Source of the DNA: a virus
Virus record (IMG/VR): IMGVR_UViG_3300046837_000247
Span: 1-53,651 of that record
Length of the DNA stretch: 53,651 bases
Direction: 5' to 3' (one strand)
Position 1 is the first letter of the stretch, and every line of letters begins with the position of its first letter. The position numbers and the translations under genes are program-made. Under the pieces are notes generated by a model. It was not told the DNA's origin. It worked only from the letters and a program-made list of their open reading frames with translations, and did no database searches. Below, one piece after another: positions 597 through 53,651 of this stretch.

Positions 597-762
597 TGGC
601 CTGGAACTGCAGTGTCGCGACGACGACGGTGGCGTTGTGCTGGCCCGCGGCGAGACCACCCTGCACCTGGACCTAGACGAGCTGCGCTGGCTCATGGTGG
701 CTGTCCCGGCGTCTATAGGCGTGCTATGCTGCGGGAACCCAAACCCGAAGGAGGCGTCGTGA
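580..762 (+). CDS. Small hypothetical protein
   Basis: A 60-residue ORF starting at GTG 580, eight bases after a GAGG. It overlaps the end of the previous gene and the start of the next. Third-position GC is high throughout, so it looks truly coding. It has an acidic-hydrophobic core (LHLDLDELRWLM). Its last 18 codons lie inside the promoter/start repeat at 710-757 and encode IGVLCCGNPNPKEAS. The endonuclease VII gene ends in almost the same peptide, for the same reason. Confidence 0.6.
   Translation: MRLARDGLELQCRDDDGGVVLARGETTLHLDLDELRWLMVAVPASIGVLCCGNPNPKEAS
710..757 (+). promoter_or_regulatory. Start-associated promoter repeat, copy 1
   Basis: Bases 710-746 are identical (37 bp) to 47073-47109. 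The element holds an extended -10 (TGC TATGCT, 722-730), then GCGGGAACCCAAACCC, then the Shine-Dalgarno GAAGGAGG before GTG 759. No good -35 is visible at 17 bp. It sits inside the 3' end of the upstream small gene and probably drives the small-gene operon that begins at 759. Confidence 0.65.
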
Positions 763-3256: not shown

Positions 3257-3685
3257 ATGATGAAGCTAGGCGAGCTGCGCTTCGAGCCACGGCGATTCGT
3301 CGTCGGCATCGAGTGGGACCATGAACCCGACGAGCACGGGCATCTGTGGAAGCGCATGGATTTCTGCATCTTCCCGCTGGTCGTGTGGCGTATGTGGTTC
3401 AAGATGACGGTGCCCGGTGCCGGGCTGGCGCGTAGGGCGTTGGGGTTCGAGGTCGCACCGACGGTCTGGACGGGGCGGTGTATGTGCGGATGGGAAACCG
3501 ACGGGGTCAAGGCGTCCTCGGATGAGGTTGTGGAGGCTTATGACGCGCACCTTCTGACGTCCGGTGCGCCGTACCACGGCTGGACGGGACCGTTGTGCGA
3601 CGGCTACCCCGGCCCGGCTAGCTCTTGGATGCGGGAGTTCGGGGCGATGGTCGAAAGGACTCGTGGGGGGCCGTCCGATGGATGA
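3257..3685 (+). CDS. Hypothetical protein
   Basis: A 142-residue protein starting at ATG 3257 or 3260 after GGGAGGG. Tryptophan- and aromatic-rich, with one CMCGW knuckle. From here to about 5.7 kb codon use is looser (more CGA, AGA, ACG, GGG) than in the surrounding genes, hinting that the stretch around the methyltransferase was acquired as a block. Confidence 0.6.
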   Translation: MMKLGELRFEPRRFVVGIEWDHEPDEHGHLWKRMDFCIFPLVVWRMWFKMTVPGAGLARRALGFEVAPTVWTGRCMCGWETDGVKASSDEVVEAYDAHLLTSGAPYHGWTGPLCDGYPGPASSWMREFGAMVERTRGGPSDG

Positions 3686-17029: not shown

Positions 17030-17185
17030 CGTGGCCTCCTTCGGGTTCGGGTCTGCACATCTTAGCGCCACCCGTGCTACGCTTGCGACATCGGCGCCAT
17101 AGGCGCAACGCCCCGCACAGTAGGCCATCGGCCCCGCGGAGCTTAGGTTCTACATACCTTTCGAGCACCGAAGGAGCCGATCACG
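17030..17185. promoter_or_regulatory. Divergent promoter region before the capsid gene
   Basis: This 156-base gap separates the minus-strand pair from the major capsid gene. Reading minus, CTAAGATG, then GACCCGAACCCGAAGGAGG, leads to ATG 17029. Reading plus, TAGGTT (17144-17149) and TACATA (17151-17156) are -10 candidates before the site GAAGGAG and ATG 17186. Good -35 boxes are not evident. A late, strong capsid promoter is plausible here. Confidence 0.5.
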
Positions 17186-24325: not shown

Positions 24326-24370
24326 CCCGCGCATACTGCCCTCACAACCCAACGCAGGAGGCGAGGCACC
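24326..24370 (+). promoter_or_regulatory. Putative promoter and leader for the tail genes
   Basis: CATACT is followed by GCCCTCACAACCCAACGCAGGAGG and ATG 24371. The order (-10, ACAACCCAAC-like segment, Shine-Dalgarno) resembles the start-associated repeats at 710, 47073 and 52624. No -35 stands out. The gap exists because the HNH gene interrupts the operon. Confidence 0.4.
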
Positions 24371-30363: not shown

Positions 30364-31464
30364 ATGCCGCGCCTCGTCGGCAACGAAACCGCCGAAGCAA
30401 CACTTGTCATAGAGAGTAAAGAACGCCCGTTTGCCTGTAAGTTCAAAGCGGCGGCGACGGGCACAATCGAAGAACTCAAGGTCACCGTCAAATGCGAAAC
30501 GGCGGAAACCGACTGTGACATAGGGATCTACAGCGAAGGGGCCGGTGTCCCCGGGGTCCTGAAAGCCCATAAAAAAACCGGCAAAATCAAAATCGGGGAA
30601 GAACTCACCCTAACGGCCACAGGGTTCTCGGTTGCTGTGACGGCCGGCACGACGTACTGGCTTGCAGTCGTCCCGACGCTCGGGACGTTCAAACTCAAGT
30701 ATAAAAAAGAAGCCGGCAAAGAAGATATCAAGAAAGGCACCACCGGCACGAAAGCCCCCGAACTGGGGGAAGCGACGACATGGGAAGTATTCGCCGAATC
30801 GACGTTGATGACGATTTGGGCGCTCGGCACGGAAACGGGCGGCCAACTCGAAGGCAAAGCCAAAGGGACGATACTCCTTGGCGGGACGTCGAAAGGTGTC
30901 GCCGCCAACGTCGTCAAAGGCATAGCGACTGGGCCGCTGCTGCTGGGGGGCACGGGCAAAGGCGTCGCAGCGAACGTCGTCAAAGGCGTAGGTACTGGTT
31001 CCCTGCTGCTGACGGGCAAAGCGAAAGGCGCGACAGCCGAAGCCCTGAAAGGCAAAGCGGCCGGCGCGATCCTGCTCACGGGCACCGCGAAAGGCACCAT
31101 CTCGGGGGGGGCGCCGGTCGTCGGCAAAGCCACCGGCACTCTGACGCTCACGGGTTCGGCGAAAGGTACTGCGTCCAACCGCGTCGTCGGCAAAGCCACG
31201 GGCGCGCTGACGCTGACAGGCACCGCCAAAGGCACCCTGAGAGCCGTTGTCACAGGCAAAGCCTCGGGCGCCCTGCTGCTCGCCGGCTCGAGCAAAGGCA
31301 TCGCCTCCAACCGCGTCGGCGGCAAAGCCACGGGTGCCCTGCTCCTCGTCGGCCATGCGCGCACACATGAAACCGGCCCGAAGCTGCTGCTGTTCGCCAA
31401 CGGCGCATCGCAGACAGTCACCCCAGCGGGCGGTGGCAGCTCGCTGGCACTCGCCTACCCCTAA
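30364..31464 (+). CDS. Tail fibre with jelly-roll head and 22-residue repeats
   Basis: 366 residues from ATG 30364. Residues ~1-160 form a beta-sandwich (IGIYSEGAGVPG ... TAGTTYWLAVVP) like that in the 33113 gene. Residues 164-341 contain eight tandem units of about 22 residues, consensus G-K-A-T-G-x-L-x-L-x-G-x-A-K-G. This probably folds as a beta solenoid or a flexible beta stalk. The C-terminus is short and Gly-rich. A virion surface location is inferred from its place in the tail cluster. Confidence 0.65.
   Translation: MPRLVGNETAEATLVIESKERPFACKFKAAATGTIEELKVTVKCETAETDCDIGIYSEGAGVPGVLKAHKKTGKIKIGEELTLTATGFSVAVTAGTTYWLAVVPTLGTFKLKYKKEAGKEDIKKGTTGTKAPELGEATTWEVFAESTLMTIWALGTETGGQLEGKAKGTILLGGTSKGVAANVVKGIATGPLLLGGTGKGVAANVVKGVGTGSLLLTGKAKGATAEALKGKAAGAILLTGTAKGTISGGAPVVGKATGTLTLTGSAKGTASNRVVGKATGALTLTGTAKGTLRAVVTGKASGALLLAGSSKGIASNRVGGKATGALLLVGHARTHETGPKLLLFANGASQTVTPAGGGSSLALAYP
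30853..31386 (+). repeat. Tandem 66-bp repeats encoding 22-residue units
   Basis: Eight units begin at about 30853, 30919, 30985, 31051, 31123, 31189, 31255 and 31321. Unit 4 is 24 codons, the rest 22. Units 1-2 share GVAANVVK and units 5 and 7 share ASNRV, showing recent duplication. Copy number may vary between related phages. Confidence 0.8.
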
Positions 31465-43508: not shown

Positions 43509-44377
43509 GCCGCTCCTACGGGCGCACGCCCAAGACACCCGACCCCCGCGACTTCCTGCTCGGGGACCACCTAGCGGGCATCGACCCCGTGCAGGCCGTT
43601 GCGGGCGCAACCTTCGGCCACGGCAACACCTACGCCAACTGGCGCATGAACGGCAACGGGCCGGTGCAGCCGGGCGAAGCGCTACCGGCCAAGTGGAAGG
43701 CCGCCAAGGAAGGCGCAGGCGACTGCGTGTATGCCGCCTGGGTCAACGAGGTGAAGGAGGCACTGACGGACGCCGGCATGGACCCAGCTGCGGCCGAGGC
43801 CAAGGTAGGCAACGCCGAGACGGCGATCCGCGCCTACATGAGCACCGGCTACAACCCCTCGACGGGCGCCCACGACGACGGAGCTGAAGTGCGCGACCGC
43901 CTGAAGCGTGCGCAGAAGACCGGGCTGACCCTGGCCGACAAAACCGTGCACAAGATCGGCATGTATGTGGCGGTCGACTACACAAACCTCGACCACCTGC
44001 TGTTCGCACTCAAGTATTTCGAGGGGCTGCCCATCGGCTGCGCGGTCCTGAACGCCAACGAGGAAGCCTTCGGGGAGGCGGAAGGCAAGCTCGACCCGGA
44101 AGGCCACCCGCTGGCGGCCGTGTGGGACGACGAACCGAACGGCGAGGTCGTGGCCCTGCATTGCATCCCGCTCGTGGGCCGGCCGGACAGCACGCACATC
44201 GCCGCGCTCACGTGGGGGCGGCGCGTGTTCCTGACGCCGGCCTACATGGCCAAGCGTGTCGAAGAGGTCTGGGCGTACCTGAGCGCAGACCGCATCAGCG
44301 CCGTGACGGGCAAGAGCTACGAGGGTGCTAGCGAAGCGGTGCTGGCCGAATACATCCAGAAGGTAGTGGCGATGTGA
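43505..44377 (+). CDS. Papain/C39-like cysteine peptidase
   Basis: 290 residues from GTG 43505 (GTGA overlap). NWRMNGNGPVQPG, GAGDCVYAAWVNEV with Cys74, then a C-terminal DSTHIAALTWG (H231) reproduce the Cys...His order of an actinophage family in which DC[TV]xAA and GGHAxxxVxWG are the core. There is no signal peptide, so release would need the holin or the tail. It may cut peptide or host protein. Confidence 0.65.
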   Translation: MSRSYGRTPKTPDPRDFLLGDHLAGIDPVQAVAGATFGHGNTYANWRMNGNGPVQPGEALPAKWKAAKEGAGDCVYAAWVNEVKEALTDAGMDPAAAEAKVGNAETAIRAYMSTGYNPSTGAHDDGAEVRDRLKRAQKTGLTLADKTVHKIGMYVAVDYTNLDHLLFALKYFEGLPIGCAVLNANEEAFGEAEGKLDPEGHPLAAVWDDEPNGEVVALHCIPLVGRPDSTHIAALTWGRRVFLTPAYMAKRVEEVWAYLSADRISAVTGKSYEGASEAVLAEYIQKVVAM

Positions 44378-45471
44378 AGGCCTACGGATGCGGCTTCGAC
44401 GGGCACTACGAGCTAGGGCAGGGCTGGCCGCGCAAAGCCATGGAAGGCCAGGCGAAGCTCAAATGGACGCTAATCCCGAACCTCGGCTCCGATAACGCCT
44501 GGTGCCACACGCTGTCGTTCTCATCGCTGTTCCTGAAGCAAGGAGCCGTGACGCTGACCGACGCCCGCCCTAACACCGTCTATGCGCTCGGGACAACGCT
44601 GGCCGGACATCTGCTGCTGGGCTGGAAAGACCAGTCGGCGGTATGGTTCCCGTCCAGAACGCTGCTCCCGCCATGCGCGCAGATCGCCGGCACCTGCAAC
44701 CATCCCGTGCATCTGACACTCGACGGGCGGATCGTCACCGGCGGCCCGAACGCCGAAGGGACGTTAGCCAACGGCGAAAGAGGCACCCGTGAAGAACCGA
44801 AAGCAGTTTCCGTGCCGGTGTTCCCCGACCTGTCCGCCTTCGCCGGCAAACGGGTAATCGCAGTCGACGGGGGCTACGGCCACTGCGGCTGCCTTTTCGA
44901 TGACGGGACCACCGCCGGCTGGGGGGAGAACGCCTCATCCCAGGTCGGGGACGGCACGCTGACCGACCGGCTGGTGGTCACGCAGACGATCGCCACGGAA
45001 GTCGTCGCCTTTGCGTGCCTGTGGAACGCAAAGCTCTACCTGAAAGCTGACGGGCGGGTTTCGATGGTCGGCAACAACAATCAGAACCAGTCTGCCGGCG
45101 CCGCCCCTGCAATCGCCCATTCGATCAAGCAGCCGTTACTGATCCCTGGCCTTGAAGGGATCATCGCTGTCGCCGGGGCAGGCGGACGTGCTCTAGCCGT
45201 CGACGTGAACGGCGACCTGTTCATGTGGGGTGCCGACGAACCCGGTCCGCCGCGGAAGGTGCTCGATCAGGTGTCTGCGATCAGCGCCGGCTGCTACCAG
45301 TGGGCCACAACATGCCTCGCCGTCCGCGACGGGGAAGTCTGGGCACAAGGCCGCGCGAACTATGGGCAGATTGGAGATGGCACGCGCGACGATAAAGAGG
45401 CGTTCGTGCCTACAGGCTTCGGGGCGTCTGTCATCAGCGCCGGGGAAACGCATAGCCTGGCGCTGGCCTAG
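44374..45471 (+). CDS. RCC1/BLIP-II-like beta-propeller protein
   Basis: 365 residues from GTG 44374. Repeated blades: CGFDGHYELGQG, VTGGPNAEGTLANGERGT, GWGENASSQVGDGTLTD, VGNNNQNQSAG, MWGADEPGP and QGRANYGQIGDGTRDD. This is the RCC1 pattern, about six to seven blades, which also occurs in the Streptomyces beta-lactamase inhibitor BLIP-II. No signal peptide. It may recognise the host surface, or bind a host enzyme. It lies at the end of the peptidase/holin cluster. Confidence 0.72.
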   Translation: MKAYGCGFDGHYELGQGWPRKAMEGQAKLKWTLIPNLGSDNAWCHTLSFSSLFLKQGAVTLTDARPNTVYALGTTLAGHLLLGWKDQSAVWFPSRTLLPPCAQIAGTCNHPVHLTLDGRIVTGGPNAEGTLANGERGTREEPKAVSVPVFPDLSAFAGKRVIAVDGGYGHCGCLFDDGTTAGWGENASSQVGDGTLTDRLVVTQTIATEVVAFACLWNAKLYLKADGRVSMVGNNNQNQSAGAAPAIAHSIKQPLLIPGLEGIIAVAGAGGRALAVDVNGDLFMWGADEPGPPRKVLDQVSAISAGCYQWATTCLAVRDGEVWAQGRANYGQIGDGTRDDKEAFVPTGFGASVISAGETHSLALA

Positions 45472-45598
45472 CCGCTACACTCCCTCGCCAGCACCGCAGG
45501 ACCGCCCCGTAACGGGCGCAGCACGCTGGCCTAACGCCCGCGTGATCCTCGCCACAGGCCCCAACCTGATGGTGTTCCCCAGCGAAGGAGGAGAGCCC

Positions 45599-46066
45599 AT
45601 CAGACGGCTACTCGCCCTAGTTGTAGTTGCCCTGTCCATTCCTACCGCAGCGCTCGCAATGCCCGCCCACAGCAGTGTCTACCACGCCCACAGCCGGGGT
45701 TGCCTGACCCGCGCGTGCGATGGGCGCGTAGACCACTGGCTGCGCCGATGGCGGGAAGCACACCGCCCCAAGGTCACCGGCCCCGAATACGTGGGCATGG
45801 CTACCTACTACCAAACCGAAGGCTGCGACGCGAGCGGCGGCGGCGGCACGACCGCCATGGGCACGGCGCCCCACTTCGGCGAGGTCGCCAACAGCGTGCT
45901 GCCGCTAGGCACCCGCATCTGGGTGGAGCCGGCGATCAAAGGGCGCCACGAATTCCGCGTCGAGGACCGCTTCGGCGGGCAGCAGGAAGCCGGACGCCTA
46001 GACGTGTGGATCCACTGCGGCGAAGAAATCCCCAACCCGACAGAGCGGTTCCACGTGATCGGCTAG
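45599..46066 (+). CDS. Secreted 3D-domain (double-psi beta-barrel) protein, ATC start
   Basis: 155 residues. IRRLLALVVVALSIPTAALA is a signal peptide (cleavage after ALA). GMATYYQTEGC, VLPLGTRIWVEP, FRVEDRFGG and GRLDVWIH give the 3D/RlpA-like barrel that usually cuts or binds glycan strands. The ideal site GAAGGAGGAG is 6 bases before ATC 45599. ATG 45569, in frame, would place ten odd residues ahead of the signal peptide. The ATC start or a base error should be checked. Confidence 0.7.
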   Translation: MRRLLALVVVALSIPTAALAMPAHSSVYHAHSRGCLTRACDGRVDHWLRRWREAHRPKVTGPEYVGMATYYQTEGCDASGGGGTTAMGTAPHFGEVANSVLPLGTRIWVEPAIKGRHEFRVEDRFGGQQEAGRLDVWIHCGEEIPNPTERFHVIG

Positions 46067-46352
46067 GCCGGGACGAACGGGCACCGAGGGAGGCGCCCAA
46101 AGCATGGTGGCGGGCTGGCTAGGCGGCTGGCTCGCCACCTCCTAAGAGCAGAGAAGCGCATCGTCGCGCCGCAAGCCTTCTCGGCAGCACGCCCCTTCGG
46201 TCCCAACCACCCTGACGCGCCGCACGTCTCCTGAGGCCTGGCGAGGCTGACGACTGCGGGGCGTGAGCGCCGGGCGGCGCTAGGCCCGTGCTATGCGGTA
46301 CGCTTTCGCTGGCTGCCACATACAGCCTCGGAGCATACACGCTCCCCCCAGC

Positions 46353-46390
46353 AAGCGCCCCGGCCCAGCGGTCCGGGGCGCTTGTGCTTT
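46353..46390 (+). terminator. Strong hairpin terminator at end of late module
   Basis: AAGCGCCCCGG (46353-46363) pairs perfectly with CCGGGGCGCTT (46373-46383) over an 11-bp stem, nine-base loop, then GTGCTTT. The T-tract is short. It closes the long plus-strand tail/lysis transcript before the regulator genes. Confidence 0.75.
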
Positions 46391-46402
46391 AGGCTGTAGG
46401 CC
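46390..46402 (+). promoter_or_regulatory. Leaderless-type -10
   Basis: TAGGCT (46390-46395) is seven bases before ATG 46403 with no Shine-Dalgarno. It begins inside the end of the terminator. Layout TAGGCT-GTAGGCC-ATGG parallels TAGCCT-GTAGTGC-ATGG before 5713. Confidence 0.5.
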
Positions 46403-46654
46403 ATGGAGGTCCCAGATCTGGCCGCACAGCAGCAGCAACTGCCGCCCAAGCAGATAGGCTTCCCGCCGCCGCCAGTCATGCATCTCGAGGTCGCCCCGGC
46501 CGGGCCGGGCCACGTGATGCTGAAGATGCTGGACCGCCAGCGCAACGAGCTGTATGCGATCCCGATGACGACCGGCTACGCCCGCGAACTTGGCAACGAA
46601 CTAATCGCGCCCAACGTCGTGCCAGCGAACGGGAACGGAACACCACCCGCATAG
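46403..46654 (+). CDS. Small Gln/Pro-rich protein
   Basis: 83 residues from ATG 46403. N-terminal AAQQQQLPP and PPPPV stretches, then HVMLKMLDRQRNELYAIPM. No domain recognised. Likely starts leaderless, as the first gene after the terminator. Confidence 0.55.
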   Translation: MEVPDLAAQQQQLPPKQIGFPPPPVMHLEVAPAGPGHVMLKMLDRQRNELYAIPMTTGYARELGNELIAPNVVPANGNGTPPA

Positions 46655-46655
46655 T

Positions 46656-46701
46656 CGTGCTATATTCGTCGGGTAGCCCAAACCCGACGAAAGGAAACAC
46701 G
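46656..46701 (+). promoter_or_regulatory. Start-associated promoter repeat, copy 2 (diverged)
   Basis: Extended -10 TGC TATATT (46658-46666), then GTAGCCCAAACCCGACGAAAGG and ATG 46702. Keeps the AGCCCAAACCC segment common to the family. The -35 is unclear. Confidence 0.55.
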
Positions 46702-46977
46702 ATGGTAACCAAGGCACCAACGAAGGAAGCGCTTCGCCGCGACCGCGTTCTACTGGCCTTGCGCAAGCAGCCCGACCAGACTTGGCAGCAGTTGGCGGGG
46801 CCACTGGCCGACATGAAAGAAGACAGGCGTGTCGTCTGGGTATGGGAGGCAGAGAGGGATGGCTGGATCCGTAAGTCGGGCGGCGTGAAAAACGGCAGGG
46901 GTCGGCCGTCTAACACCTACCGCCTGACGCCCAAGGGCAGCAAGCGCGCCAGCGCGCTGGCCAAACGCGCGGCGTAG
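46702..46977 (+). CDS. Winged-helix regulator
   Basis: 91 residues from ATG 46702 after GAAAGG. RDRVLLALRKQPDQTWQQLAGPLADMKEDRRVVWVWEAERDGWI forms a helix-turn-helix, followed by a basic wing GRGRPSNTYRLTPKG and a Lys/Arg tail. Probable DNA-binding transcription regulator at the start of the early module. Confidence 0.7.
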   Translation: MVTKAPTKEALRRDRVLLALRKQPDQTWQQLAGPLADMKEDRRVVWVWEAERDGWIRKSGGVKNGRGRPSNTYRLTPKGSKRASALAKRAA

Positions 46978-47040
46978 GCTATCCTGCGTGCAGCGGTCGC
47001 TCGGCGATCTGCTCACGCGGGTTTGGGTGACACGCGTGCT

Positions 47041-47069
47041 CGTGGCCTCGGCTAATCCCCGGGGCCACG
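47041..47069 (+). terminator. Hairpin between regulator and RecT gene
   Basis: CGTGGCC (47041-47047) and GGCCACG (47063-47069) pair, extended by CGG/CCG. No T-tract follows. It lies just before the promoter repeat at 47073, so it may end the upstream transcript or be an operator. Confidence 0.4.
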
Positions 47070-47072
47070 GGT

Positions 47073-47126
47073 CGTCTATAGGCGTGCTATGCTGCGGGAA
47101 CCCAAACCCCGACTAGGGAGGCACCC
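47073..47126 (+). promoter_or_regulatory. Start-associated promoter repeat, copy 3 (RecT operon)
   Basis: Identical to 710-746 over 37 bases. Extended -10 TGC TATGCT (47085-47093), GCGGGAACCCAAACCCC, then AGGGAGG before ATG 47127. Drives recombination genes. Confidence 0.7.
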
Positions 47127-47915
47127 ATGACAGACGAGCCTAGCCACCAGCTTGTGCGCGTGGCCGCAGCTACCGACATACCATCGGCGCAGGACATCAA
47201 CCTGCTGGGCACGGTGGCCGAGAACCTGGCCAAGTCGGGCATGTTCCCAGACGCCCGCACCGCCTCGCAGGCGTTCGCCAAGATCATGCTGGGCCGCAGC
47301 CTGGGCCTTGGCCCCATGCAGGCCATGACCGGCATCCACATCGTGGAGGGCAAACCGCAGCTGGCGGCCACCACGCTGGCTGGCTTTGTGCGCCAGCACC
47401 CGGACTACGACTACCAGGTGGCGCAGCACGACGACAAGACGTGCGAGATCTTCTTCTACGGTGCAGACAGCCGCGAGCTAGGCACCTCGAGCTTCACGCT
47501 GGATGAAGCTAAGCAGGCAGGCCTAGTAAAGCCGAAGTCAGCCTGGGAGAAATACCCCAAGAACATGCTCTTCGCCCGCGCCATGAGCAACGGCGTGCGC
47601 TGGTACTGCCCCGACCTCTTCGGTGGCGTGCCGGTCTACACCGAGGCCGACGAGTTCGAGGTGCGCCCGGCGCTAACGCAGGGCCGCGGCGACGGCGAGC
47701 CGGTGGGCATCGAGCTGCCAGCGGCTGTGGAGGCGATCATTGCGCGCGCAACCGAGTTGGGCCACCAGGGCCTAGCCGACCGTGCGGCAGCAGAGATGGC
47801 CATCGGCGGCATGCCCGTCAAGATGGTGGCCGTGTGGGTGGCTACCGCCGAGGCCGAGCTGGACGCGATCGAGCAGGCGGCCGTCGACGCCGAGGTTGAG
47901 GAGCCCGCCAAATGA
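47127..47915 (+). CDS. recT: RecT-family ssDNA annealing protein
   Basis: 262 residues from ATG 47127 after AGGGAGG. SQAFAKIMLGRSLGLGPMQAMTGIHIVEGKPQLAATTLAGFVRQHP, then SFTLDEAKQAGLVKP, AWEKYPKNMLFARAMSNGVRWYCPDLF, matches phage RecT-like recombinases. It binds ssDNA and anneals complementary strands. The C-terminus is acidic and Ala-rich. With the exonuclease at 48112 it forms a RecE/T-like pair. Confidence 0.85.
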   Translation: MTDEPSHQLVRVAAATDIPSAQDINLLGTVAENLAKSGMFPDARTASQAFAKIMLGRSLGLGPMQAMTGIHIVEGKPQLAATTLAGFVRQHPDYDYQVAQHDDKTCEIFFYGADSRELGTSSFTLDEAKQAGLVKPKSAWEKYPKNMLFARAMSNGVRWYCPDLFGGVPVYTEADEFEVRPALTQGRGDGEPVGIELPAAVEAIIARATELGHQGLADRAAAEMAIGGMPVKMVAVWVATAEAELDAIEQAAVDAEVEEPAK

Positions 47916-48115
47916 CTATGCGTGGTGCGCGACGCCACGCAGCGCAGGCGGCGTCTCATGTAGGACAAGCGCGCGACCATCGGCGGCAGCTGGCCCGGCT
48001 GTTGCGTGCTGCCCGCACACAGATCCCAGACGATGCTGCGTGGCGGCAGTGGCTAAAGGAGAACACGAGCCTGACACCGCAGCAGGCAGACGGCTATATC
48101 AGGAGGGGCAAATGA
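47912..48115 (+). CDS. Small basic protein between RecT and nuclease
   Basis: 67 residues from ATG 47912 (or 47918). Arg/His/Ala-rich N-terminus, then DAAWRQWLKENTSLTPQQADGYIRRG, a short HTH-like helix seen in phage DUF3102-type proteins. May modulate recombination. Confidence 0.5.
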   Translation: MTMRGARRHAAQAASHVGQARDHRRQLARLLRAARTQIPDDAAWRQWLKENTSLTPQQADGYIRRGK

Positions 48116-49185
48116 AGATACCCGACGCCTTTCGCCAGTCGCTGGTTGGCACCTTTGACGACTGCGCCCTGGCCACGCGCTTCGAGTTGGAAGGCCACCG
48201 CGAGTGGTCAAGCAAGGCGCAGGCGCGCGGCACGATCTTCCACAGTATTGCCGAGGAGATCTTGCGCACCCTGCACCGTCAGGGCGAGAACGCGATCAGC
48301 ACGCAGGAGGCCATAGAGGTCGCCTACGAGGTGATGGCCCAGCGCGACGTGCCGGCAGGCGATGTGGTGGTGCTGGACGCCGACGAGCGGGCCATGCTGA
48401 TCCGCACGGTGCTGATGTTCGCTGGCCTCACGTGGGACGACCTGCACATCGTGGGGCTGGAGAAGCGTCTGACGGTGCCGATCAAGTGCGAGGACGGCAA
48501 GACGCGCACGTTCACCGGCAAGCTGGACCTCCTGGCGGCAGACCCGCCGGGGGGAGCCATCGTTGTGGATTTCAAGACTGGCTGGGGGTCGCCCAAGGAC
48601 AGCCGCGGCCCCGAGGAGCCGGTCGGCAAGCAGTACCTCAGCGAGCGCGGGCACTTCCAGCTGGACGCCTACGGGCTGCTGGTGATGGGCACATACCCCA
48701 GCATCGACCACGTGACGTTGCGGGAGTTCCACGTGATGACGGACGCCGTGCGTGAAGCCACGCTGACCCGCGACGAGTTGGAGCACGTGACGCGCGAGCT
48801 GGGCGTACAGATGGAGCTGCTGGAACGGGCCATGACCGAAGGCGCCAAGTCGAAGCTGTGGAAGCCCACGCCCGGTAAGCATTGCCAATGGTGCTGTCGG
48901 CCCAGCGGCTGTCCTATTGCGGCGGCAGAACGCGGCGAGGGGGCCGTGGAGACGCCCGAGATGGCTGCAGAATGGGCTGAGGGTCTAGTGGCTGCTTCGG
49001 CCAGTCGAGACAACTATCGCAAGGCACTAAAGGCATACGTAGACGAGACTGGCGCCATTGTGCCTGCAGGGCGCAATCTGGCTGTCGGCTGGCGCGTGGA
49101 CGACAAGAACGGACGGCGTGCCTTCGGCATATATCCACGGGCTACGCTTGAAGACCAGCGGAAGATCGGAGCCGCAACCCCATGA
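48112..49185 (+). CDS. Cas4/RecB-like PD-(D/E)XK nuclease
   Basis: 357 residues from ATG 48112 after AGGAGGGG. GKLDLL with D139, VVDFKTG with D153 and K155 are the catalytic D...DxK. Cys18 (DDCA) and Cys258/261/262/267 (CQWCCRPSGC) form the Cas4/AddB-type four-Cys iron-sulphur site. A 5'-3' ssDNA exonuclease acting with RecT is the natural role. Confidence 0.85.
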   Translation: MKIPDAFRQSLVGTFDDCALATRFELEGHREWSSKAQARGTIFHSIAEEILRTLHRQGENAISTQEAIEVAYEVMAQRDVPAGDVVVLDADERAMLIRTVLMFAGLTWDDLHIVGLEKRLTVPIKCEDGKTRTFTGKLDLLAADPPGGAIVVDFKTGWGSPKDSRGPEEPVGKQYLSERGHFQLDAYGLLVMGTYPSIDHVTLREFHVMTDAVREATLTRDELEHVTRELGVQMELLERAMTEGAKSKLWKPTPGKHCQWCCRPSGCPIAAAERGEGAVETPEMAAEWAEGLVAASASRDNYRKALKAYVDETGAIVPAGRNLAVGWRVDDKNGRRAFGIYPRATLEDQRKIGAATP

Positions 49186-49670
49186 AAGCCATCGATATCG
49201 GCGAGACTTACGGGCGCCTCACGGTGCTGGCGTCTGCCGGCACAAGCCCCGAAGGTAGGGCACTTTACGACTGCCGATGTGAGTGCGGAACGCGACGCGT
49301 AGTCCTAGGTAGAAACTTGGGCAAGACGGTCTCGTGCGGATGCCTGCAGCGAGAGAAGGCTGCAGCACGGATGCGCGGTCTGGCTAGGCACGGGCATTGC
49401 AATCCGGCCAGCCCGACCTACACGACGTGGAACGGGATGCATATGCGGTGCCGCGATCCGCGCACCAACGGCTACCACAACTACGGCGGGCGCGGCATTC
49501 GCGTTTGCGACCGCTGGCGCGACTTCGCCAACTTCTTAGCGGACATGGGCGAGCGCCCAGCGGGCCTGACGCTAGATCGGATTGACCCAGACAGAGATTA
49601 CGAACCGGGCAACTGCCGCTGGGCAACACGCTCAGAACAGCGGCGCAATCAACGAAAGAAGGCAGCATGA
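49182..49670 (+). CDS. HNH/AP2-type DNA-binding protein
   Basis: 162 residues from ATG 49182 (ATGA overlap). GETYGRLTVLASAG, CRCECGTRRVVLGRNL, SCGCLQREKAAARM, then YGGRGIRVCDRW, LTLDRIDPDRDYEPGNCRWAT. This order is typical of a phage homing endonuclease-like family. The last block gives a histidine-free variant NCRWAT. It probably arrived as a mobile gene. Confidence 0.72.
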   Translation: MKAIDIGETYGRLTVLASAGTSPEGRALYDCRCECGTRRVVLGRNLGKTVSCGCLQREKAAARMRGLARHGHCNPASPTYTTWNGMHMRCRDPRTNGYHNYGGRGIRVCDRWRDFANFLADMGERPAGLTLDRIDPDRDYEPGNCRWATRSEQRRNQRKKAA

Positions 49671-49951
49671 CCGACGGAGCAACACAGCCACCCCTGCAGG
49701 CAGCACCCGACCCGGCGCCGGCACAGCGCAAGCGGAACCCGGTCTACGCCGTGTTCTTCAAAAGCGCGACCGGCGGCTGGACCTGCATGAGCACGAACCG
49801 CGCGGCGGGCAGCCGCAAGGAGGCCGTGTTGGCCGAGTGCAAGGCCAACAACGAACCGGACCTCGAGGGCGAGTTCATGGTGATCCCGGCCGACGCCATC
49901 AAGCACATCAAGCGCACCGTGAAAAAGCAGACCGTCGATGAGTTCAACTAA
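49667..49951 (+). CDS. Hypothetical protein
   Basis: 94 residues from ATG 49667 (ATGA overlap). Pro/Ala N-terminus, then AVFFKSATGGWTCMSTNRAAGSRKEAVLAECK and a beta-alpha C-terminal part. No family recognised; likely a small DNA-metabolism accessory. Confidence 0.6.
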   Translation: MTDGATQPPLQAAPDPAPAQRKRNPVYAVFFKSATGGWTCMSTNRAAGSRKEAVLAECKANNEPDLEGEFMVIPADAIKHIKRTVKKQTVDEFN

Positions 49952-50160
49952 GCCCACCACATTCGGCAATGGCCGGCCGGCGGCACAGCGCACACCGCGC
50001 AAGTCGCTGAAGGATCGGCTGGCCGAGGGACCAGGCGCTGGTGAACGAGACGCACGTGCGGCTGCGCAGGGAATTCCGGCGCCGCGACAAACGGCGCAAC
50101 CCCGACGGCTGGCGCCTGCCACCGGACAAGGAGTGCGGCGATCGTAGGGGCTACTCTTGA
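49938..50160 (+). pseudogene. Small gene with frame switch near 50027
   Basis: ATG 49938 encodes TTFGNGRPAAQ ... KSLKDRLAE with high third-position GC up to about 50024. After that this frame loses coding signal (ends 50147) while the +1 frame is clearly coding (NETHVRLRREFRRRDKRRNPDGWRLPPDKECGDRRGYS, ending 50160). Removing one G from GAGGGACC at 50024-50030 restores one continuous ORF. GTG 50041 is an alternate start. Either a base error, a recent mutation, or recoding. Confidence 0.55.
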
Positions 50161-50164
50161 GGGT
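50152..50164 (+). promoter_or_regulatory. Leaderless-type -10
   Basis: TACTCT (50152-50157), seven bases, ATG 50165, no Shine-Dalgarno. Fourth example of the genome's leaderless pattern. It overlaps the end of the previous gene. Confidence 0.45.
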
Positions 50165-50598
50165 ATGTCCGATGGCACCGGACGAGCGGCAAGAGAGGAA
50201 GGTCGGGCCGGCTGGGAGGTCGTTGTCCACCAGCGCGACGCGGCCCGGCGGGAACGCGATGAGGCGAGGCGCGAGTGCGTAGACCTGCGCGGCCAGCTGG
50301 ACGCCCTGCAGCTCCGTATGGCTACGCCTGGCATCACATCGTCTACCAGCAGACCGTCCGGCGGCACGGCGGCAACCTAGACGACCCGCGCAACCTGGTG
50401 CTGGTGCGCAACGACGCGCACGAGCACCACCACAAACGGTCGCGGGTCATCCTGCTGGCAGCCCTGCCCGACGCCGCCTACGAGTACGCTGCCGAGCTGC
50501 TGGGGCGGGGCAAGGCATACAACTACCTGCGCCGGCACTACGCGGTCGGGCCGCCACCCCAGCGTAGAGAGGACCCTCGGCTTGCAGCTTTGCTATAG
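50165..50598 (+). pseudogene. HNH-like gene with frame switch near 50320
   Basis: ATG 50165 reads a charged coiled-coil (RRERDEARRECVDLRGQLDALQLR) in frame until about 50322. The HNH-like part, in the -1 frame (YGYAWHHIVYQQTVRRHGGNLDDPRNLVLVRNDAHEHHHKR ... AYEYAAELLGRGKAYNYLRRHYA), runs to 50598. One added base at CTCCG/TAT joins them as LRYGYAWHH. Third-position GC confirms the switch; GTG 50275 is a weak alternate start. Confidence 0.55.
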
Positions 50599-50639
50599 CC
50601 GCGCTATAATGGGGTTCACCCAAACCCAAGGAGCGAACA
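50582..50639 (+). promoter_or_regulatory. Near-consensus promoter with start-associated leader
   Basis: TTGCAG (50582-50587), 17 bases, TATAAT (50605-50610), then TTCACCCAAACCCAAGGAG and ATG 50640. This is the only copy of the repeat family with a clear -35 and a consensus -10. Confidence 0.7.
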
Positions 50640-51067
50640 ATGGCAACGCCGTATCTAGACCCCAAGACGAAGCACCCGCATCCCGGCTGGGTTGATCCGG
50701 AAGCCGATCTCGTGGGCTTGAAAACTTGCAGGCGCACTTCGAATCGCTGACCGATTGGGCGATGTTGGATGGCTGCTGGCCGGCCAACGTTCACCCCGGC
50801 GACATAGACGGTTTCATAGAGCGTCGCGGCATCAGTCTGTTCTTGGAGCATAAGAAACCGGGCGCGAAACTAGGCCGCGGGCAGATGATCGCCTACGAGA
50901 GCCTCGCTCGGCAGGGCAACACGACGCTGGCGTGTTGGGGCGACCGCCTGAACGTGGAAGCCCTGCAGATCATTGGCCCCAGCGGCACGCGGCCTATCGT
51001 CGAGGCCTCGCTAGAGGAGATGCGGCGACTGTGTGCGGGATGGTGGCGGCAGGCCAGCCGCAGATAG
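50640..51067 (+). pseudogene. VRR-NUC-like gene with frame switch near 50720
   Basis: ATG 50640 encodes ATPYLDPKTKHPHPGWVDPEADLVGL, then continues as an unlikely CRRTSNR. The -1 frame (ORF from TTG 50726) gives LQAHFESLTDWAMLDGCWPANVHPGDIDGFIERRGISLFLEHKKPGAKLGRGQMIAY, ending 51067. Adding one base before AAAAC at ~50720 gives VGLENLQAHF. FLEHKKPGA is a restriction/VRR-nuclease-like core (E...K). Confidence 0.55.
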
Positions 51068-51072
51068 AACGA

Positions 51073-51166
51073 CTACGGCCCGACACACGAGGATCGCCGG
51101 GCCGTAGTATGCTGTGCCGCTGAGAGTTATGCGCGGGGCAAGCGTAGCAAATGTCGCGCCCCGCGC
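51073..51166 (+). promoter_or_regulatory. Hairpin, promoter and structured leader
   Basis: CTACGGCCCG (51073-51082) and CGGGCCGTAG (51098-51107) form a perfect 10-bp hairpin ending directly at TATGCT (51108-51113), a possible -10. Downstream GCGCGGGGC (51131-51139) pairs with GCCCCGCGC (51158-51166). The Shine-Dalgarno GAAGGAGGG follows before ATG 51197. The first hairpin may terminate the upstream gene; the second may regulate the leader. Confidence 0.5.
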
Positions 51167-51196
51167 GGTCTGCAGGTCACCGCGAAGGAGGGCACC

Positions 51197-51292
51197 ATGA
51201 CCGAGCTGCAAACCCCCCAGAGGCTAGGGCGCTGGGCTATGCCACGAGAACGCACGGCACCCACGCGGGAGGCTACTGCAGCATCCGGGTAG
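51197..51292 (+). CDS. Small leader peptide-like ORF
   Basis: 31 residues from ATG 51197 after GAAGGAGGG. Arg/Thr/Ala-rich (MPRERTAPTREATAASG). The following gene starts seven bases after its stop. Could be a coupled leader peptide. Confidence 0.4.
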   Translation: MTELQTPQRLGRWAMPRERTAPTREATAASG

Positions 51293-51298
51293 GCGGCT

Positions 51299-51841
51299 AT
51301 GGCCGCCCCGGCGCAGCACCTAGCGCCCATCCCAGACAGGCAGACGGGCGAGTTGCAGCCAGCGACGCCCGAGGGCCTGGCGCAGGAGAACCAAGCCCTG
51401 CGCGACGAACTGGCTGGCGCCATGCGCTCCCTAAGAGCCGAGTCGCGGCGCCTGGAGGAGCTAAAGCGAGACCACCAGGCAGAAGCAGAAGAACACAAGC
51501 TCTGGCCACAGGCCACCAACCTGTTCGCGCACTGGCAGAAAGCGTGCAGGCACCCCGGCGCCGACTGGAAATGGGAGCGGTTCGAGTTGGTGGTGCCGTA
51601 CCTGAAACGGCGCAAGTACGGATTGGAGCTGTGCCTGCGCGCCATCGCGGGCGCGGCCTTTGACCCGTTCGTCACCAAGGCGAAAAACGGCAACCCGATA
51701 CGTCACGACGGCTGGGATCTGATCTTCCGCAACTCCGAAAAGTTCGAGTCGTTCTGCAACCGTGCTCCGGTGCCGTGGGAGTGCCCGGACCTGGCGCCGT
51801 TCATGCGGCCTGGCCCGGTGCTGGTGGTGGTGGGCGGGTGA
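51299..51841 (+). CDS. Hypothetical, coiled-coil plus helical domain
   Basis: 180 residues from ATG 51299. N-terminal PDRQTGELQPATPEGLAQENQALRDELAGAMRSLRAESRRLEELKRDHQAEAE is a coiled coil. HKLWPQATNLFAHWQKACRHP and the rest form an actinophage domain of unknown role, located in the early block. Candidate replication-associated or DNA-binding protein, tentative. Confidence 0.6.
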   Translation: MAAPAQHLAPIPDRQTGELQPATPEGLAQENQALRDELAGAMRSLRAESRRLEELKRDHQAEAEEHKLWPQATNLFAHWQKACRHPGADWKWERFELVVPYLKRRKYGLELCLRAIAGAAFDPFVTKAKNGNPIRHDGWDLIFRNSEKFESFCNRAPVPWECPDLAPFMRPGPVLVVVGG

Positions 51842-52284
51842 GCAAGTTGCAGGTGGTGCCGATGACACTGAGGGAGGCGAACGCTTACGTCGAACGCAAC
51901 CATCGTCACAGCGTTCCCGTGCGCGGCATGAAGTTTGCAATCGGGGCGGCTCTAGGCGAGGCTGTGGTGGGCGTTGCTCTCGTCGGTCGTCCCGTGGCGC
52001 GCGTAGCAGACGACGGCTGGACGGCCGAGGTTCTGCGCGTCTGTACAAATGGCACGCCCAACGCACCTTCAATGCTGTATCGCGCCTGCTGGCGGGCCTG
52101 CCGCGCGATGGGCTATCGGAAGCTCATCACATACACGCTCAAGACAGAGCCGGGCACGAGCCTGCGCGCGGCGGGATGGACCGTTGTCGGGGAGGTTGCG
52201 AAGCGTAGTTGGCATACACCGTCGCGCCCGCGCGTAGATAGAGACGAGCGACAGGAGCGTTTCCGCTGGGAGATCGTGGCGTGA
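51838..52284 (+). CDS. XF1762-like protein (putative acetyltransferase fold)
   Basis: 148 residues from GTG 51838 (GTGA overlap). QVVPMTLREANAYVERNHRH, FAIGAALGEAVVGVALVGRPVARV, EVLRVCTNGTPNAPSMLYRACWRACRAMGYRKLITYTL, TSLRAAGW match the XF1762 family. The fold is GNAT-like; substrates are not known. Confidence 0.75.
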   Translation: MSKLQVVPMTLREANAYVERNHRHSVPVRGMKFAIGAALGEAVVGVALVGRPVARVADDGWTAEVLRVCTNGTPNAPSMLYRACWRACRAMGYRKLITYTLKTEPGTSLRAAGWTVVGEVAKRSWHTPSRPRVDRDERQERFRWEIVA

Positions 52285-52670
52285 GGTATTGGACATGTCG
52301 GCGGCAGGCCAAGGGCGTCGTGTGCGGCGCGCGCAACCCGGCGGTCAAGCAGCGATGCACCGGCTGCGGCAAGCCTCGGCCGAAGCGCCAGGCCCCGGCC
52401 CACAAGGCCGCGCTCGACCTGCCATACGAGACCTACGTCAAACTGAACGGCGGCGACCACTGCTACCTCTGCGAACGCCAGCCCAGCGCCGGCCGCCGGC
52501 TAGACCGTGACCACGACCACCGCACGGGCCAGCCGCGGGGTCTCTTGTGCCACCGCTGCAACCGGGCTCTGCCCAGCTGGACGACGCCGCAGTGGCATCG
52601 GCACGCGGCGGCCTACCTGGAAATAGGCGTGCTATGCTCTGTGCTACCCAAGCCCAAGGAGGCCGCGTGA
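52281..52670 (+). CDS. Recombination endonuclease VII-like resolvase
   Basis: 129 residues from GTG 52281 (GTGA overlap). CTGCGKPRPKR zinc motif, then HCYLCERQ ... LDRDHDHRTGQPRGLLCHRCNRAL, the endonuclease VII core with DHDH and two CxxC pairs. Cleaves Holliday and branched DNA before packaging. Its last residues IGVLC...PKPKEAA are encoded by the promoter repeat for the next gene. Confidence 0.86.
   Translation: MRYWTCRRQAKGVVCGARNPAVKQRCTGCGKPRPKRQAPAHKAALDLPYETYVKLNGGDHCYLCERQPSAGRRLDRDHDHRTGQPRGLLCHRCNRALPSWTTPQWHRHAAAYLEIGVLCSVLPKPKEAA
52624..52666 (+). promoter_or_regulatory. Start-associated promoter repeat, copy 5
   Basis: ATAGGCGTGCTATGCT (52623-52638) as in copies 710 and 47073, then CTGTGCTACCCAAGCCCAAGGAGG and GTG 52667. 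Embedded in the 3' end of the endonuclease VII gene. Confidence 0.62.
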
Positions 52671-52867
52671 AGGTCCCGCAGATAGTCGGCAAGCCCGAGG
52701 CTGCGGCCATCCTGGGCATCCACCCGAACAACATGAAGCAGGACGGCAAGTGGGGCTATGGCCTGCCGCCGTCGCTACAGGACCGCGGGCTGGCCGAATG
52801 CGCCACGACGCCCCTTTGGCTTCGCAGCGAGGTAGAGGCGGCTGCACGCAGCAGGAAGAAGCCGTGA
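52667..52867 (+). CDS. Excise/AlpA-like HTH protein
   Basis: 66 residues from GTG 52667 after AAGGAGG. IVGKPEAAAILGIHPNNMKQDGKWGYGLP ... PLWLRSEVEAAARSR is a compact MerR/AlpA-like helix-turn-helix. Probable regulator; no integrase is present to suggest excision. Confidence 0.62.
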   Translation: MKVPQIVGKPEAAAILGIHPNNMKQDGKWGYGLPPSLQDRGLAECATTPLWLRSEVEAAARSRKKP

Positions 52868-53013
52868 TGCGGATGCGGATGCGGGCGGGTTGGCTACAGG
52901 ACGGCCACTTCTGGCTTACGCGAGGCAGGTGGTTCTGGCGCTACACGTACTGCTACAACTGCGGGTTGCCGTACCGCGATGGCCTTTCTAAGTGCTCTAG
53001 GCGAGGCCGATGA
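52867..53013 (+). CDS. Small aromatic/Cys protein
   Basis: 48 residues from ATG 52867 (GTG 52864 in frame). Trp/Arg-rich with CYNCGLPYRDGLSKC, possibly a zinc site. Function unknown. Confidence 0.5.
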   Translation: MRMRMRAGWLQDGHFWLTRGRWFWRYTYCYNCGLPYRDGLSKCSRRGR

Positions 53014-53014
53014 C

Positions 53015-53290
53015 GTGGCTGAGGAACCTCTGTCGGGCTATGGTGACCGCCCTGTGGTTGGCGGCCCGCTCGATGGCCACAACGCCACTGCGACCGCTGA
53101 GTGCTTCGCCTACCTCGATGCCTCCGGTGACGCCTGGGACCTGGACGGCCCCGGCCGTGCCCTCTACCAGCGCCGAGGCACCCTCTGGGAGTTCGCCGGC
53201 CATGGCCAATACCTGTGCGTGGGATGCCGAGCGATGGTGGCTTCCCGAGCGGGCAGCACTTGTCCGCTGTGCGGAGCTGGACAGCCGTGA
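53015..53290 (+). CDS. Small zinc-ribbon protein
   Basis: 91 residues from GTG 53015, eight bases after GCGAGG. Acidic N-terminus (GGPLDGHNATATAECFAY) and a C-terminal CVGCRAMV ... CPLCGAG ribbon. An ATG 52979 lies upstream in frame but within the previous gene. Function unknown. Confidence 0.55.
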   Translation: MAEEPLSGYGDRPVVGGPLDGHNATATAECFAYLDASGDAWDLDGPGRALYQRRGTLWEFAGHGQYLCVGCRAMVASRAGSTCPLCGAGQP

Positions 53291-53306
53291 ACGGGCTGCG
53301 CAGTTC

Positions 53307-53429
53307 GTGGACGGCGTGAAGTTTGCGCTGATCGCCGAGTCCAACGAGGTCGACGACGACGAGGTCTACGCAGCCCTGACGATACTGCTGGCCGACGTGT
53401 TGGAAGCCCAGGACAGGCTGGCCGCCTAA
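53307..53429 (+). CDS. Tiny acidic protein
   Basis: 40 residues from GTG 53307. VKFALIAESNEVDDDEVYAALTILLADVLEAQDRLAA is acidic and helical. Its stop TAA (53427-53429) overlaps the ATG of the junction gene by one base. Confidence 0.4.
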   Translation: MDGVKFALIAESNEVDDDEVYAALTILLADVLEAQDRLAA

Positions 53430-53651
53430 TGGGCGGGGTGCACCTACGTAATCGCACCTGGGAGTGTGAGGAGACAGGGATGGTGGTGCGGCGGTGCTCG
53501 CGCTGCGAGCAGGTCAAGGTGCTGCAGGAGTTCGGAGACCAAAGCAGGCCGGGCATCTGTTCCGATTGCCGCATGGCGTACTACCGCGCCCTGCGCCGGG
53601 CCGGGCGGATCAAGCCGAAGGAGAAAGAGAAGGAGCGGCTACGACGCAAAG
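53429..53651 (+). CDS. Zinc-finger/HTH protein, 5' part (continues at base 3)
   Basis: Starts at ATG 53429, overlapping the previous TAA by one base. It encodes VRRCSRCEQVKVLQEFGDQ and ICSDCR, a four-Cys zinc finger, then a Lys/Arg/Glu helix. In the repeat 53550-53651 the residue after CSDCR is Met here but Lys at the left copy. The C-terminal HTH lies at 3-596. Confidence 0.8.
   Translation, partial: MGGVHLRNRTWECEETGMVVRRCSRCEQVKVLQEFGDQSRPGICSDCRMAYYRALRRAGRIKPKEKEKERLRRK
53550..53651. repeat. Terminal direct repeat, right copy
   Basis: Matches bases 1-102 except T at 53574 (A at 25). See left copy. The difference may mark two sequence variants in the sample or an assembly-end error. Confidence 0.9.

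Follow-up and report, generated by a model that had tools for sequence, protein, structure and literature searches.

A two-block repeat, probably a promoter with its leader, ahead of gene starts in a viral genome

We analysed a virus record of 53,651 bases (G+C 66%), all of which we will call the window. The record has a terminal repeat of 102 bases at both ends, so it looks circularly complete, with the right end (52.6 kb) joining the left (0.7 kb). The matches of its head-tail adaptor and capsid proteins are nearly all to actinobacteriophages (of Gordonia, Mycobacterium, Microbacterium, or Streptomyces, at about 30–35% identity), and no isolated phage matched the first 20 kb at the DNA level. 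Judged from its sequence, this is a virus of actinobacteria. We also noticed a protein with RCC1-like repeats (44374–45471; Pfam WD40_RLD, E = 3e-45), which is unusual for such a position in a phage genome; a Mom-like DNA modification protein (51775–52284; phrog_1384, E = 5e-35) close to an endonuclease VII (52320); a DNA methyltransferase at 3564; and a gene (30364–31464) with imperfect 66-base tandem repeats (GGCAAAGCC..., at 30848–31341).

Five sites on the plus strand (715, 46651, 47078, 50595, and 52623) have a common pattern: ATAG-N-CG-Y-GCTAT-NN-T, then 7–10 unconserved bases, then (A)CCCRARCCC, and then a Shine-Dalgarno site. A sixth site, on the minus strand before 17029, has all of the second block and part of the first. 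Five of the six elements lie in the early arm, which runs from 46.6 kb round to 0.7 kb. Element 1 (715–758, plus strand) consists of ATAGGCGTGCTATGCT at 715–730, with the -10 hexamer TATGCT at 725–730; a predicted +1 at A737; CCCAAACCC at 738–746; and AAGGAGG. It leads into a GTG start at 759, for a protein of 93 amino acids with no assigned function. Element 2 (46651–46701, plus) has ATAGTCGTGCTATATT at 46651–46666 and CCCAAACCC at 46677–46685. The gene behind it, at 46702 (plus), encodes a probable winged-helix protein of 91 amino acids (its Pfam match to PadR is weak, E = 0.025). Element 3 (47078–47126, plus) has ATAGGCGTGCTATGCT at 47078–47093, a predicted +1 at A47100, and CCCAAACCC at 47101–47109, and is followed at 47127 (plus) by a gene for a RecT-like annealing protein (phrog_561, E = 2e-23).

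Element 4 (50595–50639, plus) has ATAGCCGCGCTATAAT at 50595–50610, a predicted +1 at A50618, CCCAAACCC at 50619–50627, and an ATG at 50640. Its first block overlaps a perfect palindrome (TATAGC-CGC-GCTATA), and it is the only copy with a -35-like hexamer (TTGCAG, separated by 17 nt from the TATAAT). The gene that follows (50640–51067) is broken near an AAAA run (at about 50723): the frame that opens at 50640 stops at about 50750, and the reading goes on to 51067 in a second frame that overlaps it. The break may be either an assembly error or a frameshift. Element 5 (52623–52666, plus) has ATAGGCGTGCTATGCT at 52623–52638, a predicted +1 at A52646, and CCCAAGCCC at 52647–52655, and precedes a 66-amino-acid protein (52667, plus) that is HTH-like by inspection. 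Element 6 (17074–17030, minus) has only a partial first block, GCGCTAAGAT, with the -10 at 17064–17059, a predicted +1 at A17052, CCCGAACCC at 17051–17043, and AAGGAGG. It shares CCCGAACCC, GCTANNNT, and the Shine-Dalgarno site with other copies and lacks the ATAG. Its gene (17029–16850, minus; 59 amino acids, no assigned function) is an inverse insert between the portal and capsid genes. Small HTH-like genes number at least three in the early region, and two of these follow an element. (Single-sequence folds of two HTH candidates were poor, with pLDDT of 48 and 54, and unusable.)

The first block, ATAGGCGTGCTATGCT, occurs without mismatches at 715, 47078, and 52623, with 3 mismatches at 46651, and with 4 at 50595. 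With up to 3 mismatches, it occurs 4 times in the window, versus 0.29 expected, and none of 100 shuffles reached 4. Exact copies of the leader block CCCAAACCC begin on the plus strand at 738, 46677, 47101, and 50619, and the minus strand has one at 47019 (5 copies on both strands of the window versus 0.46 expected; no shuffle reached 5), and there are variants at 52647 (plus; CCCAAGCCC) and 17051 (minus; CCCGAACCC). A regular expression for the complete architecture (-10, spacing, leader, Shine-Dalgarno site, start codon, and open frame) matches the window at exactly these six sites, with 0.0 matches expected. With a two-block weight matrix, the joint scores of the five plus-strand sites are 43–48 and that of the minus-strand site is 28.8, and nothing else scores above 13.2. 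Leaving out one site at a time, every site was recovered and ranked with or just after the others. We aligned one copy of the identical pair at 710 and 47073 with the other window copies and with a copy from a relative (G028, described below). Column conservation in this alignment reveals two blocks with sharp edges, the first reading ATAG-N-CG-Y-GCTAT-NN-T and the second A-CCC-R-A-R-CCC-N-A-N-G; the flanks and the 7–10-base spacer are unconserved.

A first-pass annotation of the window had described such a repeat family before gene starts. This holds for the genes at 759, 47127, and 52667, for the diverged forms at 46656 and 50582, and for the minus-strand copy before 17029, which is backed by a full syntenic copy in G028. 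It does not hold for another proposed copy at 24326, which has CCCAAC and a Shine-Dalgarno site and no match to the first block, and which is outside the 22 best joint scores; the region upstream of its G028 orthologue lacks the element as well. The reported identity of 710–746 and 47073–47109 over 37 bases is exact. The leader block at 52623 was taken to be the same as elsewhere, and there the annotation needs correcting, as this copy carries CCCAAGCCC and not CCCAAACCC.

Searches with the element gave no matches in Rfam and nothing meaningful by BLAST against isolated phages. A 15-mer from the first block had five exact matches among other viral contigs, all lacking the leader block, and the element's pattern had five matches in bacterial genomes, all from unrelated bacteria and with no start resembling that of the element. 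We judged both sets to be chance.

In Mycobacterium smegmatis, the preferred SigA signal is TANNNT at -13 to -6, with no -35 motif (PMC6448022). By sequence, TANNNT with an A 7–9 nt downstream fits at all six window sites. Across 20 sites from six phages, an A lies 7–8 nt after the -10 hexamer, just before the C-rich block, in 19 cases (the exception is 46651, at 9 nt), but this set was assembled partly via the motif, so the count is not fully independent. A consensus promoter scan of 45400–53651 found no sigma-70 sites, because the scan requires a good -35. The leaders are poor in G and T ahead of the Shine-Dalgarno site. The annotation had pointed to the segment between the -10 and the ribosome site, and rightly so; more exactly, the predicted +1 is where the block starts.

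The annotation had also suggested a motif search in related genomes. The element is not absent from all of them: there is a full copy in G028 and a variant in G043, so a promoter and leader ahead of gene starts, as proposed, is supported by conservation of position in two relatives. G028 (IMGVR_UViG_3300050018_000010) has a portal protein that is 77% identical to the window's and a capsid protein that is 64% identical. Its copy reads ATAGCCGTGCTATGCT-GGCTCTA-CCCGAACCC-GAGGAG-ATG and is in an inverse insert between portal and capsid, which is syntenic with 17029, and the gene behind it has no visible similarity to the 17029 gene. In G043 (IMGVR_UViG_3300037139_000049; RecT 53% identical), the variant is TGCTAACCT, 7–8 nt, WCCCAAC, and GGAG, and it occurs before RecT, at 48791, and at 50807. 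The 50807 copy is preceded by a homologue of the window's gene 279–596 and by a small ORF that by eye looks homologous to 580–762, so it is syntenic with the copy at 710. (The gene behind 50807 has the sequence WIDPEAGLEG, which resembles the N-terminal WVDPEADLVG of the gene behind element 4.) A third genome, G006, is 99.93% identical over 3532–46102; this region covers only the 17029 copy, which G006 carries. The complete architecture is absent from relatives that mainly have structural genes in common with the window (G029, G031, G034, G037, G044, and G046), and the terminase-based relatives, which mostly share only the terminase, have no elements.

Some relatives have start-associated families of their own. 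In G034, ATCCCAACCGAAAGGA lies directly before an ATG in four copies (3442, 4145, and 4384 on the plus strand and 11984 on the minus strand), with no evident -10 just upstream, so the leader motif can exist apart from a promoter. In G026 (IMGVR_UViG_3300037070_006409), TANNNT, 7–13 nt, CACCCGAACCC, and a Shine-Dalgarno site form a family of five copies (33935 on the minus strand, 40697, 50369, 59106, and 72779). G023 (IMGVR_UViG_3300014501_000012) has five GTATACTAGTA promoters, four with a CA-rich leader and then CCAAGGAGG. Separately, a palindrome, CGCTACAGGTGTAGCG, is repeated upstream of starts in G023, and a capsid-related phage of lower G+C, G033, has start-associated repeats CGCCCCTACACCTGAAACGGAG and CCCTGAGCCAAGTGAA at about 46254–48915 (minus strand).

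We propose that the element is a duplicated promoter-leader cassette, with a host sigma-A-type promoter, a +1 at the A, a short leader, and a candidate operator. This is the best explanation that we have, and we put its probability at about 0.7. Host RNA polymerase with a sigma-A-type factor would recognise TANNNT, mostly inside the extended TGC-TATNNT, and transcription would begin at the A 7–8 nt past it (9 nt at 46651). The 5' end of the mRNA would then be ACCCRAACCC (AGCCCAAACCC at 46651), in a short, G/U-poor leader of about 20–27 nt that carries the tag ACCCAAACCC and is followed at once by a strong Shine-Dalgarno site. The small early genes or operons would each be provided with a start of their own, as would the one gene inversely inserted among the head genes, and the cassette may have been copied and relocated with or without its gene. 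The sequences themselves show the two conserved blocks, where they are placed, and that relatives keep them; we infer the transcription start, the use of sigma-A, the repressor, and the function of the leader, which may be an open translation start site and/or promoter escape. The ATAG-N5-CTAT dyad, which lies over the -10, is most likely an operator, and the protein that reads it would probably be one of the small helix-turn-helix proteins of the phage.

We also considered that the repeats might be merely coding sequence, conserved as the C-terminal ends of upstream genes that overlap them (...GVLCCGNPNPKEAS or ...IGVLCSVLPKPKEAA). The block is indeed in the same frame as the upstream ORF at 715, at 52623, in G028, and at 50807 of G043. 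But at 46651 and 50595 the stop codon of the upstream gene is inside the ATAG, in another frame; 47078 is intergenic, in a 149-nt gap; and the neighbour upstream of 17029 is on the opposite strand. With four sites outside that frame, we rejected this idea as very improbable. It is just as hard to believe that the copies are functionless debris, alike only because segments were copied within the genome. The 37-nt identity between 710 and 47073 does resemble a recent copy, but the other copies retain the two blocks while their spacers and flanks have diverged, and the syntenic copies in phages with 53–77% protein identity largely contradict it.

The other alternatives concern what the leader block does. 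It could work at translation initiation, much like the start-associated sequences (SAS) described below, as an unpaired CA-rich stretch that aids loading of the 30S subunit. The predicted +1 is always 20–27 nt ahead of the start codon, at all six window elements and in the G028 copy; the block is unpaired in most of the predicted leaders; and G023, G025, G026, and G034 have independent CA-rich start-associated families. However, the predicted accessibility of the Shine-Dalgarno sites behind the elements is no better than for other genes in the window, and a leader that is simply unstructured would not call for so exact a repeat. We take a role in translation seriously, at somewhat less than even odds. 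That excess of conservation would instead fit a DNA operator, CCCRARCCC, bound by a phage protein just past the +1 and conserved as DNA rather than RNA, and the HTH-like genes of the early region could supply such a protein. But CCC follows the -10 at anything from 7 to 10 bp, so that the two sites would face different sides of the helix in different copies, and the four ATCCCAACCGAAAGGA copies in G034 have no visible -10 just upstream. We consider this operator rather unlikely, and within the promoter-leader cassette the dyad over the -10 is a better candidate than CCCAAACCC.

More speculatively, the leader tag ACCCAAACCC might be a switch at the RNA level: messages that start at the cassette would be open, and readthrough messages would fold the tag away. 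The predicted start at 46651 is spanned by a perfect inverted repeat of 10 bp (TTCGTCGGGT/ACCCGACGAA, plus strand), and none of 500 shuffles had one. At 47078, an antisense copy of the leader lies about 80 nt upstream (47018–47027, plus; GGGTTTGGGT; the chance of this is 0.00075). The window has no other exact copy of the leader block in antisense. This one would pair with 47100–47109 in readthrough RNA, and the fold of that RNA has a z-score of -4.06. These 5' arms are ahead of the predicted starts, so only RNA initiated upstream could fold over the leader. In readthrough messages, the tag could be folded away by the 10-bp hairpin at 46651 and, for RecT, by the GGGUUUGGGU arm at 47018–47027. 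In four of the leaders, 9 nt or more are complementary to the antisense arm, which might also act in trans on other early messages. We saw no hairpin or antisense arm at the other element sites, and the mean accessibility of the Shine-Dalgarno sites is only modestly lower in readthrough RNA, at 0.35 against 0.49. This pattern is a lead found after the fact, and we think that such a switch is improbable. It would be similar to the occluded ribosome sites of T4 genes e, soc, and 49, where a helix forms over the initiation region only in RNA initiated upstream (PMC3014915), as the 5' arms of the predicted hairpins at 46651 and 47078 also precede the predicted starts. But the hairpins here are predictions, the host and phage are unrelated, and the promoter would be an ordinary one instead of a phage late promoter.

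Start-associated repeats in actinobacteriophages were described in 2011. In cluster K, the SAS and extended SAS (ESAS) are repeated asymmetric sequences that accompany the starts of numerous genes without homology to each other; most share one orientation, and relatives keep them (PMC3203893). Our element is similar in that it lies upstream of several start codons with one main orientation (5 of 6 on the plus strand). However, the cluster K SAS has the sequence GGGATAGGAGCCC and directly precedes the start, with 17-bp imperfect inverted repeats added in the ESAS, whereas the block of our element coincides with the predicted +1, 20–26 nt ahead of the start codon and behind a clear -10. By inspection, the elements have no ESAS-type inverted repeats, only the dyad with its 4-bp arms. 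In Microbacterium phages of clusters EC, EF, EG, and EI, SAS/ESAS-like and other short repeats also lie upstream of starts, but these motifs differ in sequence, and that of cluster EF, GGGAAAGGACCCC, extends over the ribosome site (PMC7302621). With up to 2 departures, GGGATAGGAGCCC has one chance-level match in the window, not at an element, and GGGAAAGGACCCC has none (up to 2 mismatches), so the annotation was right that the likeness to cluster K is in concept and not in sequence. Gordonia phage Vardy (cluster DJ) has a 50-bp intergenic motif in five copies, with a -10 box and reaching near gene starts, for which a role in regulating expression was proposed; compared here by its description in the text, it is reported with TATAAT and with no separable leader block (PMC9671010). 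So the kind of element is already known, as the start-associated repeats of actinobacteriophages, while its sequence and its placement at a predicted transcription start are new. The element divides cleanly in two, one block for the promoter and one for the leader. As the relatives include both blocks (G028), a variant (G043), and a leader-only family (G034), the two roles are separately testable, and the short promoter and leader could be a usable expression part for high-GC actinobacteria.
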